Shown: positions 26,433 to 36,283 of the stretch, piece after piece
Layout: the number at the start of each line of letters is the position of its first letter
Position numbering within the stretch: the first letter of the stretch is position 1
DNA from: Microcoleus sp. FACHB-1515
Lineage (GTDB): Bacteria > Cyanobacteriota > Cyanobacteriia > Elainellales > Elainellaceae
NCBI RefSeq assembly: GCF_014696105.1
Contig: NZ_JACJPO010000052.1
Coordinates: 62,001 to 126,000, forward strand
Length of the DNA stretch: 64,000 nt
Direction of reading: 5' to 3'
Program-made: the position numbers and the translations under genes
Notes under the pieces: generated by a model
Seen by the model: only the letters and a program-made list of their open reading frames with translations
The model's database searches: none
What the model was told of the DNA's origin: nothing

Positions 26433-26567
26433 GATTTGGGTTGAGAGTAGCCGGACAAAATCCAATTTTAGGAATGCCTGCCTCAATAAGATCCATTGAT
26501 TTTGCCAACGGTCTCTAAAAGCAAAACTGTAGACTGAGTTTTAGTGCAGCGATCGCGAGGTGGAGCA

Positions 26568-29108
26568 ATGAATGCGGAACGTCAGCAGTGGCTAAAAGAC
26601 AATACGCTGCTCGGATCGCTCTCGAATGTCGCTTTGGCGGCGATCGCTGAGGCCGTTTCGATCGAGATCGTTCAGGCAAATCGCCGTCTTGTCTTGGAAG
26701 ATACGGCTCCGCCTGCGCTCTACATTCTCAAAGACGGACATCTTGAAAGCTATCGCACCAGCCCGACGAGTGCGGCCAACGCGACGAGCTTGCTGGCGGG
26801 CAGCGTCCTCTGTCTGCGTGAACTGCTGCTCGATCGACTGGCGGAACAAACAATCATCACGCTGACCGAGTGTGAACTGTGGACGATCGATCGCTCGAAG
26901 TTTGAGGCGATCGCCCAGCAGTTTCCCGAAATTGGCCTGACGGTTTCGCGTCAGCTTGCGGCTGAACTGAGCGAAATTTCTTCAAAGCTGGCGTTTGAGC
27001 AAGCTAGACAAACGGCTTTGCGGCCTTATCTAGTTCCAAAAGTGCGGCGCGGCATTGTTGGGTCGAGTCGGTATGCGGTGCGATTGCGAAGTGATATTAA
27101 AAAGGCGGCAAGCGATCGCCGTCCGGTTGTGATTTTGGGCGAGCCAGGATTGGGAAAAGACAACATTGCCGCGCTAATTCACTTTGGGTCGAGCGATCGC
27201 CACGAGCCGCTGATCAAGGTGAACTGCGACACGTTGCAGTCTAGTGGCGCGGATTTGTTTGGGCGCGTGGGCGGCAAACCTGGGCTGCTTGAATGGCTCG
27301 GCAGGGGAACGCTGATGCTCAACAACATGCAGGATTTTCCGATCGAGCTAGAAGCCAAACTGATTCGTCTGCTGGAAACGGGTGAATACACACCCATTGG
27401 TCAGCCGGATGCCACTGTGAAGCGATCGGAAGCTCGAATTATGTTGACAACCGAGCGATCGCTGCCCAAGATCGATCGCAAATCGCTGATCGGCCATTCG
27501 ATCAAAGTGCCGCCGCTGCGGGTGCGAAAAGCAGACATTGCCGCGCAGGTGAAGTATTACCTCAGCTTGATTGCGCGATCGCGGGGCATTACGCCGCCGG
27601 ACGTTGCCCCAGAAGCGTTGCGGCGACTGCAAGGCTACGATTTTCCCGGAAATTTGGCAGAACTAGAAGGTTTGCTGGCACGGGCGATCGTGCAGTGCGA
27701 CCGCGCTGCTGTCCTCACCGAAGAAGTATTTTGGTCAGCGAGTACCCGCAGCAAACGGTTTCGCGTCAATTTGCTCAACACATATCCGCGTCTGCGGCAG
27801 TTTTTGCGGAGCGACTGGTGGCCGGATCGAATTAACTATGGCTTTACCTTAACGGCGTTTGCGATCGTCGTTGCCATCTTGTTTCTCGCACCGCAGTCTC
27901 GCGACTCTAACATCGGGCTAAATCTATTTTGGGCGTGGTGGTGGCCGATTATCCTGATCGGATTTCCGTTTGTTGGGCGATTGTGGTGTGCATTTTGTCC
28001 GTTCATGATTTACGGCGAACTGGCGCAGACCATTTCGTTGAAGCTGTGGCCGCGTCAGCTATTGCCTTGGCCGCGTCAGCAGGCAGAACGATGGGGCGGC
28101 TGGTTTTTGTTCGGCCTGTTTGCCTTGATTTTGCTGTGGGAAGAGTTGTGGAATCTCGAAAACGTTGCGTATCTGTCGGCCTGTTTGCTGCTGCTCATTA
28201 CCTCCGGTGCGGTGATCTTTTCGCTTTTATTTGAGCGCAGGTTTTGGTGTCGATATTTGTGTCCGATCGGTGGCATGAATGGATTGTTTGCGAAGCTGTC
28301 GATCGTGGAACTGCGAGCGCAGCAGGGCATTTGCTCGGCCACCTGCACGACCTATCAGTGCTACAAAGGCGGGCCGCAAAAAGGCGAAGGCATGGAAACG
28401 AATGGCTGTCCGGTCTATTCGCATCCGGCGCAGCTTCAAGACAATCGCAACTGCGTGTTGTGTATGACCTGTTTGAAGGCTTGTCCGCATCGATCGGTCG
28501 AACTGAATTTGCGGCCACCGGGCATTGAACTGTGGACGACGCACACGGCAACAGCCGCAGAAGTCTCGCTGTTATTTTTGCTGTTTGGCGCGGTTTTGCT
28601 GCATCGTCTGCCAGAAATTGAGGCGCAGTTTGGCTGGCAGTTGGGACTTGAAAATTTTGGCGTTCATGCGGGCGTTTCGATGGTTGCGCTGTCGGTTCCG
28701 GGTGCGATCGCTCTAACTGCCCATGCCATTCTGCAACTGGTCGATCGCGCAGCGCCGGAACGGTATCGCCTCAAGCCCAAACCGTTTCTAGAACTAGCTT
28801 ATGGATATCTACCGCTTGTGTTGGGCGGCAGCTTGGCACACTATCTCAGATTGGGTTTGACGGAAGCGGGGCGGGTTGTGCCCGTGACGCTGGCAACCTT
28901 TGGCCTGTCGAACGTGGGAATGCCTGTGGCGGTGGCTGACCCGATCATCATTGCTTTTTTGCAGGGTGTGACGCTGATTGTTTCGGTTTGGCTGAGTGTG
29001 CTGCTGACTCAAAATATTGCGCGACAGCCGATCGCGAATTTGCTGCCGCAGCATTTGGCAACCCTGGCGATCGGGTGTTTGTTTTGGAAGTTGATTGTGG
29101 GATGGTAG
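26568..29108 (+). CDS. cNMP-binding-like / degenerate sigma54-AAA+ / membrane polyferredoxin fusion
   Basis: 846 residues from ATG 26568 (GGAG four bases upstream). Residues 10-140 resemble a Crp-type cNMP-binding beta-roll. Residues 165-385 match the sigma54-interaction AAA+ domain: Walker A GEPGLGKD (191-198), LFGRV, GTLMLNNM (247-254), PPLRVRKADI (315-324), YDFPGNLAELE. But the GAFTGA loop is absent, with GGKPG following FGRV directly, and the Walker B Asp-Glu is Asn252-Asn253. Residues 420-846 have about nine transmembrane helices with WCAFCP (473-478), WCRYLCP (560-566), Cys589/593/598/614 and a 4Fe-4S motif CxxCxxCxxxCP at 629-640, like NapH/NosR/CcoG. No HTH. Cyanobacteria lack sigma54, so this is probably a redox-linked membrane sensor or electron-transfer protein whose AAA+ part is structural. 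Function unknown. Confidence 0.85.
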   Translation: MNAERQQWLKDNTLLGSLSNVALAAIAEAVSIEIVQANRRLVLEDTAPPALYILKDGHLESYRTSPTSAANATSLLAGSVLCLRELLLDRLAEQTIITLTECELWTIDRSKFEAIAQQFPEIGLTVSRQLAAELSEISSKLAFEQARQTALRPYLVPKVRRGIVGSSRYAVRLRSDIKKAASDRRPVVILGEPGLGKDNIAALIHFGSSDRHEPLIKVNCDTLQSSGADLFGRVGGKPGLLEWLGRGTLMLNNMQDFPIELEAKLIRLLETGEYTPIGQPDATVKRSEARIMLTTERSLPKIDRKSLIGHSIKVPPLRVRKADIAAQVKYYLSLIARSRGITPPDVAPEALRRLQGYDFPGNLAELEGLLARAIVQCDRAAVLTEEVFWSASTRSKRFRVNLLNTYPRLRQFLRSDWWPDRINYGFTLTAFAIVVAILFLAPQSRDSNIGLNLFWAWWWPIILIGFPFVGRLWCAFCPFMIYGELAQTISLKLWPRQLLPWPRQQAERWGGWFLFGLFALILLWEELWNLENVAYLSACLLLLITSGAVIFSLLFERRFWCRYLCPIGGMNGLFAKLSIVELRAQQGICSATCTTYQCYKGGPQKGEGMETNGCPVYSHPAQLQDNRNCVLCMTCLKACPHRSVELNLRPPGIELWTTHTATAAEVSLLFLLFGAVLLHRLPEIEAQFGWQLGLENFGVHAGVSMVALSVPGAIALTAHAILQLVDRAAPERYRLKPKPFLELAYGYLPLVLGGSLAHYLRLGLTEAGRVVPVTLATFGLSNVGMPVAVADPIIIAFLQGVTLIVSVWLSVLLTQNIARQPIANLLPQHLATLAIGCLFWKLIVGW

Positions 29109-32704: not shown

Positions 32705-35700
32705 ATGACAGGCAATCACGTCATTTTTATTCATCCCGACGGAACCAGTCCGGCAACTTTTGCATTTGCGCGGTTTGTCGCTCAAGGCCCAGATGGTCGG
32801 CTTAACTGGGACAACCTTGATGAGGCGCGAGTTTACCTGGGGCACATGGAAGACCAGCTTACGGGCACTTCCAATGCGGGCGCTGTCACTCACGCTACCG
32901 GAGTGAAAGCTTATGCCGAATCGTTTGGCCTGGAAGTGGTTCGGGACGCCAACGGCAATCCCACTGTTGGCGCCAATGGCCGCGCCCTGGAAACACCGCT
33001 GACGGCTTTGTCGGGCAAGCAGCAGACGATCGTGGAAGAAGCCGTCGCCGCCAATAAAGCAACGGCTTTGATCAACTCTGGCGCGATCGCAGAACCGGGT
33101 ACAGGTGCGTTTGTGGCACAGGTCGGACAAACCGATGTTCCTCCGGGCTTATCGGGCTTTGAGAATTTTCCGCGATCGCAATTCGCCAAGATTACCGAGC
33201 AAGTGGTGCGATCGGGTGTTGATGTGATTTTGGGCGGCGGCTTGGTCAACTATCTGCCTGTTGGCACTCAGCCGCCAGCCGGAGCGACCTACGCCACCTC
33301 CGCCGCTCAGCTTGATGCCATTTCGAGATCTGCCAGTCAGCGTCCGAACATCAACCTGATTGAACTGGCACAGTCGCTCGGCTACACGATCGTTTATACC
33401 GAAGAGCAGCTTAACGCCGTTGTTGCCGATGGCCGCACGACAAAAGTTCTCGGTATCTTCGCCAATGAAGACACCTTTAACGACAACGTTCGTACTGGCA
33501 CGGGCAACCTCAGCGGCGTTGAGGAAAATTTGATTGCGACCGGAAATGCTCCCTACGTGCCTTCTGCGCCGACGGTGGGCGAAATGCTGGCAGCGGCGCA
33601 AACGCTAATGGAGCGCAATCCCAAGTTTCAAAATGGCTCGCTCACCGTTTTGGAAGAAGAGGGAACCGACAACTTCGGCAACATCAACAACGCAGCGGGA
33701 ATGCTCGAAGCGCTGCGGCGGACGGATGGCGCGATCGGTCAAGCCTTGGCGTTTCACGATCGCCATCCCAACACGCTGATCATCACAGCGGCAGACAGCG
33801 AAGCGGGCGGCTTACAGGTTCGCGATCCGCTGCCTGCGGGCAATGTCGGCACGGTTCCCGCCAACCCGACGAACATTCCCGGTCAACCATCGGGCGCGTT
33901 CAACAATCCGCTAGATGGGCGATCGGGTTCTCGAACCGAGCCGTTCACTTCAGCCCCAGACGCGCAGGGCAATTCGTTTAACTTTGGCGTCGGCTGGGTT
34001 GGTACGCCGGACTTTGCAGGCAACATCGTCACGAAAGCGCACGGTTTGAACGCCGATACGCTGCCTGTGACCGTAGACAACACCGACATCTACCGCGCCA
34101 TGTACTTGACGCTGTTCGGGGTCGATCTGCCTGCTCGCGTTGCCGATGCCCCTGAAGCGCCTGCCGCCACCAGCACAACGGGCAACGTGATCTTCTTCCA
34201 TCCCGACGGTCACAGTCCGGCGATGTTTGGCGCGGCTCGCTTTGTCAGCGAGGGGCCAGATGGTCGCCTCAACTGGGACAGAATGAGCAACACGGGCGTT
34301 TATCTGGGACATTTGACTGACCAGTTGACTGGTGCTTCAGATGGCAGCGGTGTCGTTCATGCCAATGGCGTCAAGGTGTTCCAAGATTCCTACGGCCTGA
34401 ACGAAGACGGTAGCCGTGTGACACCGTTCTCCGGAAAGGTGGGCAGCACGATTTTGGAAGAAGCTCGCGATCGCGGCAAAGCCGTTGTCATGATCAACTC
34501 TGGCCGCATCAGCGAACCGGGATCGGGCGCATTTGCTGCTGAAGTGTCCAGCCGAGGCGACAACAACGAAATCGTCCGCCAGCACATCATGGAGTCGGGC
34601 GCTCAGGTGATCATGGGCGGCGGCGAACGCTGGATGCTGCCGGAAGGCGTGGCCGGACGTTTTGGTGTGGGTGCGCGGACGGACGGGCTGAACCTGATTG
34701 CGGAAGCGCAGCAGCTTGGCTATCGCGTGATTTTTACCCGCGAAGAACTCGCGACGATTCAACCGGGCGAGAAAATCCTCGGCGTGTTTGCCTGGGAAGA
34801 CACCTACAACACCGCGACCGAGGAAAACTTGCAGGCGCGAGGCTTGCAGCCCTACGGTCAGCCCGGAAATCCGAATCCGCCGACTGTGGCCGAAATGATG
34901 GAAGGGGCACTGCGATCGGTTCGCAACGCGCCCAACGGCTTCTTCATTGCCTCCGAGGAAGAAGGAACCGACAACTTCCCCAACAGCAACAATGCTGCCG
35001 CCACGATTCAGGCGACGCTGCGAGCCGATGCTGCGATCGGAGTTGCCCAAAACTTCGTGAACACGGTAGACCCGAACACGATGATTTTGACAGCCGCAGA
35101 CAGCGAGGCGGGCGGCCTGCAAGTTTGGCAGCCGACTCCGTTCGCTCCGGGTTTCCCCACCACGCCGCTACCGACCACGCCCACCATTCCCGTCAACCCG
35201 ACGAATGTGGGAACCAACCAAAATCCGCTAGACGGCCAAAACGGTCGGCTGGCTCCCTGGACGGCTTTCCAGTCGCAGCCGAGTCTGGATGGCGCGATGG
35301 GTGGCTTTGGCATCGGCTGGGTCGGAACGCCCGACTTCCCTGGCAACATCGTCGCCAAATCCTACGGCTTGAACGCCGATCGCCTCCCCTCGACGCTGGA
35401 CAACACCGAGATCTACAAGCAAATGTACTTCTCGCTGTTCGGTGAACTGGGTGATTCCAGCGCGATCGACGGCACGTCCGGAAACGACACGCTGTTTGGC
35501 AATTCTTCCGATGAAGCGTTCATCGGTGGCGGCGGCAACGACATCGTTTATGCCGGAGAAGGCAACAACCGTGTCTACATCGGCGTGGGTAACAGCACCG
35601 TCTATGTCGGCGCAGGCAACGATGTGGTCAGCACTGATGACGGCAACCAAACGATCTACGCGGGAGAAGGTAACAACCGTCTCTCAGTCGGTCGCGGCAA

Positions 35701-36283
35701 CAGCACCCTGTACGCCGGAGCGGGCAACGATATCATCAGCCTGCTGGGTGGCAACAACACCGTCTACGCCGGAGAAGGCCGCAACGTGATCACGGTGGGC
35801 GCGGGAACCGATACCAACGCCGCAGGGGACGATCGCATCTTCACCGGAGCAGGCAACGATTACATCAACGCCAGCGGCGGCAACAACACGATCTACGCCG
35901 GAGAAGGCGCAAACAACATCGTGACCGGAGCGGGTGACGACCTGATCGATGTCGGGGCGGGCGATGACTTCATCCGCGCAGGCGCAGGCAACAACACGAT
36001 CTACGCCGGAGAAGGCAACAACACGATCGCCTCGTCGGGCAACGACTTGATCTACATTGGGTCGGGTCGCGATCGCCTCCAACTCGGACGCGGAACCGGA
36101 AACGCAACGGTGATTACCTTCAACAGCGCGATCGATCGAATTGCGCTGGGTGGCGGCTTGCAGTTTAGCGATTTGTCGATCGCCCAAAACGGCGGCGACA
36201 CCACGATCAGCGCAGGCAGCGATCGACTTGCCACCTTAAAATCGGTGCAGGCTAGCTCGATTACCAGTTCTGTGTTTGCCTAA
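32705..36283 (+). CDS. Atypical alkaline phosphatase, two tandem domains plus RTX repeats
   Basis: 1192 residues. Two homologous alkaline phosphatase domains of about 470 residues each (1-470 and 485-915). Each has HVIFIHPDGTSPATF or VIFFHPDGHSPAMF (metal-ligand Asp), a nucleophile-type GTSNAGA or GASDGSG, EEEGTDNFxNxNNAA and TAADSEAGGLQ. The last motif has Ser where classical PhoA has His (TADH). The family is that of the very large atypical PhoA known from Synechococcus 7942 and Nostoc. From residue 922 there are RTX-type Ca-binding repeats (GNDTLFGN, GNNTIYAGEGNN, GAGNDYI) and then a SDLSIAQ-type end. No Sec signal; secretion by a type I system is therefore likely. Releases phosphate from extracellular organic phosphate, by family inference. 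A terminator hairpin follows. Confidence 0.9.
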   Translation: MTGNHVIFIHPDGTSPATFAFARFVAQGPDGRLNWDNLDEARVYLGHMEDQLTGTSNAGAVTHATGVKAYAESFGLEVVRDANGNPTVGANGRALETPLTALSGKQQTIVEEAVAANKATALINSGAIAEPGTGAFVAQVGQTDVPPGLSGFENFPRSQFAKITEQVVRSGVDVILGGGLVNYLPVGTQPPAGATYATSAAQLDAISRSASQRPNINLIELAQSLGYTIVYTEEQLNAVVADGRTTKVLGIFANEDTFNDNVRTGTGNLSGVEENLIATGNAPYVPSAPTVGEMLAAAQTLMERNPKFQNGSLTVLEEEGTDNFGNINNAAGMLEALRRTDGAIGQALAFHDRHPNTLIITAADSEAGGLQVRDPLPAGNVGTVPANPTNIPGQPSGAFNNPLDGRSGSRTEPFTSAPDAQGNSFNFGVGWVGTPDFAGNIVTKAHGLNADTLPVTVDNTDIYRAMYLTLFGVDLPARVADAPEAPAATSTTGNVIFFHPDGHSPAMFGAARFVSEGPDGRLNWDRMSNTGVYLGHLTDQLTGASDGSGVVHANGVKVFQDSYGLNEDGSRVTPFSGKVGSTILEEARDRGKAVVMINSGRISEPGSGAFAAEVSSRGDNNEIVRQHIMESGAQVIMGGGERWMLPEGVAGRFGVGARTDGLNLIAEAQQLGYRVIFTREELATIQPGEKILGVFAWEDTYNTATEENLQARGLQPYGQPGNPNPPTVAEMMEGALRSVRNAPNGFFIASEEEGTDNFPNSNNAAATIQATLRADAAIGVAQNFVNTVDPNTMILTAADSEAGGLQVWQPTPFAPGFPTTPLPTTPTIPVNPTNVGTNQNPLDGQNGRLAPWTAFQSQPSLDGAMGGFGIGWVGTPDFPGNIVAKSYGLNADRLPSTLDNTEIYKQMYFSLFGELGDSSAIDGTSGNDTLFGNSSDEAFIGGGGNDIVYAGEGNNRVYIGVGNSTVYVGAGNDVVSTDDGNQTIYAGEGNNRLSVGRGNSTLYAGAGNDIISLLGGNNTVYAGEGRNVITVGAGTDTNAAGDDRIFTGAGNDYINASGGNNTIYAGEGANNIVTGAGDDLIDVGAGDDFIRAGAGNNTIYAGEGNNTIASSGNDLIYIGSGRDRLQLGRGTGNATVITFNSAIDRIALGGGLQFSDLSIAQNGGDTTISAGSDRLATLKSVQASSITSSVFA
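35470..36100 (+). repeat. RTX-encoding tandem repeats
   Basis: Imperfect nucleotide repeats of the type AACAACACGATCTACGCC with GGAGAAGGC at about 35661, 35765, 35893 and 36001, which encode the NNTIYAGEGNN units in the C-terminal part of the phosphatase. They look like a hemolysin-type Ca-binding region and explain the repeat signal; no CRISPR character. Confidence 0.8.

Follow-up and report, generated by a model that had tools for sequence, protein, structure and literature searches.

A putative cyanobacterial membrane electron-transfer protein combining a NapH/NosR-like polyferredoxin with a degenerate sigma54-activator-type AAA+ domain

What might a sigma54-activator-type AAA+ domain do when it is joined to a membrane polyferredoxin in a lineage that lacks sigma54? 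The question is posed by a gene in a 64,000-nucleotide stretch of the Microcoleus sp. FACHB-1515 genome (the window), for which an earlier interpretation of the letters by themselves (the sequence-only reading) had described one open reading frame encoding a Crp-like domain, a AAA+ domain and a polyferredoxin, in that order and with no DNA-binding domain. Both the open frame and Pfam searches bear this description out. One intact gene at 26568-29108 on the forward strand, lying in an open frame of 26544-29108 with its likely ATG at 26568, encodes 846 amino acids. Pfam identifies, from N- to C-terminus and in every case above the curated cut-off, cNMP_binding (PF00027, residues 35-118; 37.7 bits against a cut-off of 27.5), Sigma54_activat (PF00158; 70.5 bits against 20.2), AAA_lid_14 (41.4 bits against 27) and Fer4_5 (PF12801; two stretches, one at residues 541-577, with a protein score of 32.9 against 22). 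Ferredoxin-type cluster models match weakly, and the same search returns no DNA-binding or helix-turn-helix (HTH) domain. The features of the gene are as follows.

26568-29108, forward strand: whole gene, 846 residues, ATG at 26568, stop included; a single open frame, as in 80 full-length single-frame orthologues.
26568-26972, forward strand: residues 1-135, Crp-like beta-roll without HTH (PF00027 match).
27051-27731, forward strand: residues 162-388, degenerate sigma54-activator-type AAA+ domain with lid (PF00158, AAA_lid_14; PDB relatives NifA and NtrX).
27138-27161, forward strand: residues 191-198, Walker A motif GEPGLGKD, its Lys present in 120/120 relatives.
27258-27287, forward strand: residues 231-240, FGRVGGKPGL, the point at which the GAFTGA (L1) loop has been deleted, with an 8-residue gap relative to a canonical activator.
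27312-27326, forward strand: residues 249-253, LMLNN, the Walker B position, where Asn252-Asn253 replace Asp-Glu.
27831-28229, forward strand: first four membrane helices (residues ~422-440, 451-469, 506-530 and 536-554; hydropathy, AlphaFold).
27987-28001, forward strand: residues 474-478, CAFCP, first membrane Cys motif (CX2CP), both Cys invariant.
28248-28265, forward strand: residues 561-566, CRYLCP, second membrane Cys motif (CX3CP), Cys invariant, in the Fer4_5 match at 541-577.
28332-28412, forward strand: cluster motif I, C589-x3-C593-x4-C598-x15-C614-P, four invariant Cys.
28452-28487, forward strand: cluster motif II, C629xxC632xxC635xxxC639P, of [4Fe-4S] type, four invariant Cys.
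28554-29102, forward strand: five C-terminal membrane helices (residues ~663-684, 697-728, 740-777, 792-818 and 822-845; AlphaFold, pLDDT mostly 80-95).

That two genes had been joined by a sequencing or assembly error, a possibility which the sequence-only reading had raised against itself, is ruled out because the 80 orthologues retrieved are all single frames, 61-74% identical to the window protein over nearly the whole length; this is a real gene family and not an assembly artefact. At least 379 loci encode relatives in a genome scan, and the best 80 of the 379 are all cyanobacterial. From a sample of 386 genomes of the phylum 109 matched, of which 106 carry the family and all belong to the same class as the window genome; the other three (family f37) match through the AAA+ part only, and the two of these that were inspected are separate, ordinary-looking activators. 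In an order-level sample the family is present in 33 of 36 genomes. No relatives were found in viral contigs, and the distribution beyond the cyanobacteria is under-sampled because other phyla were covered by plasmid records only.

The relatives fall into three types, namely type A, which includes the window protein; type B, a paralogue of about 40% identity that coexists with type A in some genomes; and type C, which lacks the Crp domain and was found in a single family (f19) of small-genome cyanobacteria, probably marine Synechococcus to judge from genome size and lineage pattern. Types B and C each form a single well-supported clade, and the AAA+ tree groups C with A (98/99). A root placed with Deinococcus, whose branch is very long, is unreliable. 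Type B copies go under the annotation 'nitrogen assimilation regulatory protein' or 'cyclic nucleotide-binding domain-containing protein', and the open-licence papers searched yielded no description of this architecture.

Sigma54 and its activators were absent from all 29 cyanobacteria sequenced at the time of an earlier survey (PMC3162934), and the sequence-only reading had argued that an activator would find no partner here. In agreement with this, the RpoN DNA-binding domain (PF04552) has no match in the window's own genome (5.79 Mb, 100% complete, 0.25% contaminated), where an rpoN gene had been named as counter-evidence. Across the class, one orphan DNA-binding fragment and nothing else scores above the PF04552 cut-off; this is a 202-residue protein of genome G153 (L165:6915-7523, reverse strand) that has a clear sigma54 DNA-binding domain (62 bits) with the rest of RpoN missing. 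Two further genomes of the phylum, G134 and G353, in which no RpoN DNA-binding domain was found, encode tandem double sigma54-activator AAA+ proteins (L123:8752-10731 and L124:8754-11087, respectively) with GAFTGA and Walker motifs intact or near-intact.

To assess the state of the AAA+ domain, 120 relatives (99 type A, 16 type B and 5 type C) were aligned to a canonical activator that belongs to their phylum. The best PDB relatives of the domain are NifA by sequence (E 2e-24) and NtrX and NtrC1 by Foldseek, NtrX being the closest fold. Proper alignment upholds the earlier observations that the GAFTGA loop is missing (in 99/99 type A proteins, with effective deletion also in types B and C) and that Asn252-Asn253 occupy the place of the Walker B Asp-Glu, no Walker B acids being found; each of the two Asn residues is present in 98/99 type A proteins, whilst this position is mostly Asp-Asn in type B and variable in type C. 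Neither the sensor I Asn nor the arginine-finger segment remains, the latter having been deleted, and most A and B proteins have lost the sensor II Arg, leaving the Walker A Lys (Lys197), which is present in all 120 relatives, as the sole AAA+ catalytic feature retained among those tested. The Walker A motif had been called intact, which is true of the window protein (GEPGLGKD) but not of its subfamily, for the last Gly is replaced, mostly by Glu, in 72/99 type A proteins and kept in 27/99; it is also replaced in 5/5 type C proteins, and type B has the canonical GKT.

Sigma54 activators (bEBPs, such as NifA, NtrC, NtrX, NorR and PspF) thus share with the window protein the AAA+ fold and lid, but, in line with the sequence-only reading, the domain cannot be such an activator, because sigma54, GAFTGA, the Walker B acids, the sensor I Asn, the arginine finger and a DNA-binding domain are all missing. 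A C-terminal DNA-binding domain is usual, though not universal, among bEBPs, and the best reading is that the window protein is not a transcription factor.

Selection was gauged from median dN/dS values over 322 type A pairs, which are simple Nei-Gojobori estimates from non-independent pairs. The median for the AAA+ domain (0.091) indicates purifying selection and lies below those for helices 5-9 (0.121) and the Crp domain (0.235), with helices 1-4 at 0.057 and the cluster segment, the most constrained part of the protein, at 0.008. The domain looks catalytically dead yet maintained, its catalytic features having been lost while dN/dS is low, near 0.09, and it would be expected to have lost ATP hydrolysis; that it is maintained says nothing of its role. 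Were the AAA+ domain a passive leftover of fusion, with the membrane module alone mattering, the loss of all tested catalytic features save the Walker A Lys would be accounted for. Such a relic is nevertheless very improbable in view of the dN/dS of 0.091, the near-invariance of the GEPGL.KD motif, Lys197, Asn252 and Asn253 across distant genera, and the fact that no full-length copy without the AAA+ part was seen, the broken loci L182 and L187 having it in another frame.

The earlier suggestion that this part has become a nucleotide-sensing or structural module survives in its second half, a structural or gating role now being favoured, whereas nucleotide sensing is weakened. For type A it is weak because about 70% of the proteins have a broken P-loop, and also because the Walker B Asp has been lost; from the motifs, nucleotide binding is plausible mainly in type B and in the minority that keep GLGKD. 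We consider it unlikely that the protein is a nucleotide-gated redox switch, in which the AAA+ part would bind ATP or ADP without hydrolysis and the nucleotide or ring state would open or close the path for electrons and so couple redox flow to energy charge. The Walker A Lys, the last Gly kept by the window protein and 26 other type A proteins, and the combination of GKT with an Asp-Asn Walker B in most type B copies, which is the pattern expected for binding without hydrolysis, all speak for such a switch; against it stand the P-loop Gly replacements in types A and C, the change of the type A Walker B Asp to Asn, and the missing sensors and arginine finger.

The Crp-like domain resembles Crp/FNR regulators in its cNMP-type beta-roll, scored above the Pfam cut-off, and differs from them in having no HTH. 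It is the fastest-evolving domain, and the classic cAMP-pocket residues (Gly-Glu...Arg) are not evident in types A and B when judged by eye, unscored. It is absent, with the AAA+ domain retained, from L128, L184, L185/L186 and type C, that is, from at least four separate lineages, and since some of the families with Crp-less copies also include relatives that still have it, it has probably been lost several times.

These features bear on whether the protein signals, the Fe-S module sensing redox state and the Crp/AAA+ half relaying it to a sigma70-type RNA polymerase, a kinase or a transporter. TyrR, DhaR, HupR and VpsR are regulators that bind DNA and have no redox membrane part. In these GAFTGA-defective activators the sigma54-contacting loop is altered or lost (PMC3162934), as it is in the window protein, which carries a membrane polyferredoxin in place of the output domain. 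The sigma70 dependence of TyrR and HupR (PMC3162934), the signal-domain architecture with NtrX as closest fold match, and the history of RdhC, which was initially proposed as a transcriptional regulator (PMC5928378), would all suit redox signalling. Yet we regard this as distinctly improbable, there being no DNA-binding domain, the Crp domain being dispensable, and the Fe-S segment (dN/dS 0.008) being more constrained than the putative output half.

The membrane part has about nine helices, a number given by the sequence-only reading and supported by family-averaged hydropathy and by AlphaFold models, and in this topology the N-terminus and the Cys motifs are predicted to share one side of the membrane. 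Of the Cys motifs noted earlier, WCRYLCP (CX3CP) and CxxCxxCxxxCP stand as described; the first (WCAFCP) is CX2CP and not CX3CP, and the C589-x3-C593-x4-C598-x15-C614-P motif had been overlooked. Twelve Cys residues (474, 477, 561, 565, 589, 593, 598, 614, 629, 632, 635 and 639) are invariant in 120/120 relatives, so that the membrane part looks redox-active, as had been supposed. All twelve are also present in a stand-alone relative from Deinococcus ficus (33% identity), which, like stand-alone haloarchaeal 4Fe-4S proteins (about 27%), aligns over most of the membrane module, with tblastn matches extending into the five C-terminal helices, and is without Crp or AAA+ domains; the module can therefore be a redox unit alone.

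Two side observations concern related polyferredoxins. On the Deinococcus ficus plasmid, the polyferredoxin gene overlaps with another (L133:9042-9968) whose His-rich product has a single helix and no Pfam match, and a heavy-metal P-type ATPase is encoded on the same stretch. The window's own genome encodes a second Fer4_5 polyferredoxin of 935 residues (L163:3257-6064, reverse strand, contig C42), which shares the polyferredoxin membrane part and a cNMP_binding domain but has the latter at the C-terminus, lacks the AAA+ domain and differs in Cys pattern; the pairing of polyferredoxin with Crp thus occurs twice in this genome, with the domain order reversed.

Among characterised systems, a four-helix core with two Cys motifs is common to NapH, NosR and RdhC. 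The literature links these proteins with quinol-dependent electron transfer (PMC5928378; PMC8238504), and mutations in the Cys motifs of NapH or NosR impair function (PMC5928378). The window protein resembles NapH, NosR and RdhC (PceC) in its membrane helices with two Cys-Pro motifs, in PF12801 and in weak matches to NapH models, and resembles NapH and NosR in having two [4Fe-4S] cluster motifs. It differs in its CX2CP first motif, its five extra C-terminal helices, its Crp and AAA+ fusion and the lack of both an FMN domain and an FMN_bind partner; neighbours of the nap, nos or rdh kind were not seen, and the NCBIfam NapH/MauN model (TIGR02163) scores 53.6 bits, well below its cut-off of 213.05. 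NapH-like systems with FMN-domain partners are widely catalogued, and extracytosolic flavinylation is under-represented in cyanobacteria (PMC8238504); FMN_bind (PF04205) was found in none of the 11 cyanobacterial genomes of the class that were searched, the window's own included. A PDB sequence search with the membrane part gave short ferredoxin-type matches only, with no solved homologue, and a fold search with its model, which is weak around the clusters (the cluster region being unmodelled, pLDDT <50), matched no solved structure (E >0.5). Given its Fer4_5 features and its score below the NapH cut-off, we place the window protein as a fusion of a NapH/NosR-like polyferredoxin with a pseudo-ATPase derived from an activator.

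Genomic neighbourhoods offer no conserved partner for type A: none was found across the carriers' loci, and the window neighbours (a 114-residue ORF, an MFS transporter and glcD) have no matches near the gene in other carriers. A gene further along the window (32705-36283, forward strand) encodes a 1192-residue protein whose two N-terminal halves resemble each other and look phosphatase-like by eye, and whose C-terminus has Gly/Asn-rich repeats. Among 20 type C loci, when overlapping ORFs in the wrong frame are disregarded, even the commonest neighbour recurs in no more than about a third, a test limited by GC-rich ORF noise, and single copies lie, by eye, near znu-like or fur-like genes.

The latter observation touches on the acceptor. 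CcoG belongs to the same general class of module as the Fer4_5 membrane part, and its hallmark is Cu(II) reduction for cbb3 assembly. A CcoG-like reductase, which would use quinol electrons to reduce a Cu or Fe ion either at the membrane or across it, is a narrower form of the electron-transfer reading, with its acceptor named, and would be in keeping with that general kinship, with the His-rich protein and P-type ATPase genes accompanying the Deinococcus ficus relative and with the type C copies just mentioned; such metal-related neighbours are not conserved, however, and we think this version quite unlikely.

The loci of type B are different in character from those of type A, being enriched in cysK (7/16 against 4/98), psbA (7/16 against 2/98), rhodanese (6/16 against 0/98), aldehyde decarbonylase (5/16 against 0/98) and NifX (4/16 against 0/98), with Fisher p from 3e-6 to 3e-4, values that near-duplication within two pairs of the type B loci makes somewhat optimistic. 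In Pseudanabaena galeata the type B gene is on plasmid pPg_03 (L136), where it lies 6 bases from cysK and is surrounded by a cluster that includes a variant psbA, petC and genes for NifX-like, Pyr_redox_2 and arsR products, several of them within about 12 kb, the Pyr_redox_2 protein being a likely sulfide:quinone reductase. The psbA products near L136 and L129 are changed at several Mn-cluster ligand positions (placed by eye) and in this resemble the 'rogue' D1 type, which is associated with anoxic conditions (PMC5061849); hdr-like genes occur at two other type B loci (L118 and L141). Such surroundings suggest that type B may act in redox metabolism at low oxygen or with sulfide, and they bear less on type A, the type of the window protein.

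Taken together, these results lead us to favour, at a probability of about 0.55, a NapH/NosR-like (Fer4_5) protein that transfers electrons in the membrane and has its Crp and dead AAA+ domains on the cytosolic face as scaffold or gate. The electron source would be membrane plastoquinol or a soluble ferredoxin; from there the electrons would travel by way of two putative [4Fe-4S] clusters (C589/593/598/614 and C629/632/635/639) together with the pair of Cys-Pro motifs at the membrane edge, and be delivered onward to an acceptor. The pseudo-AAA+ domain would neither hydrolyse ATP nor contact sigma54. Its likeliest tasks are to bring the protein into oligomers and to dock or gate the electron donor, and the Crp-like domain would add an input that is optional; the membrane side, electron flow, cluster assembly, loss of ATP hydrolysis, oligomerisation and the docking or gating role are all parts that we infer. 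Against this electron-transfer reading count the lack of a conserved neighbour for types A and C, of a match to a solved structure, and of a NapH score above cut-off. A more specific version, a membrane redox enzyme gated by an assembly of pseudo-ATPases derived from sigma54 activators, with type B tuned to microoxic or sulfidic conditions, is put forward tentatively and is rather unlikely.

If that version is true, an activator fold is used outside transcription. The family represents a widespread and strongly conserved cyanobacterial membrane redox protein, apparently undescribed in the open-licence literature searched, the redox part of which is masked by the current annotations of type B. 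A AAA+ domain of transcription activators has here been kept for an apparently non-transcriptional role in a lineage without sigma54, and the position of type B beside rogue D1, cysK and sulfide-type genes makes a role in adaptation to low oxygen or sulfide directly testable.
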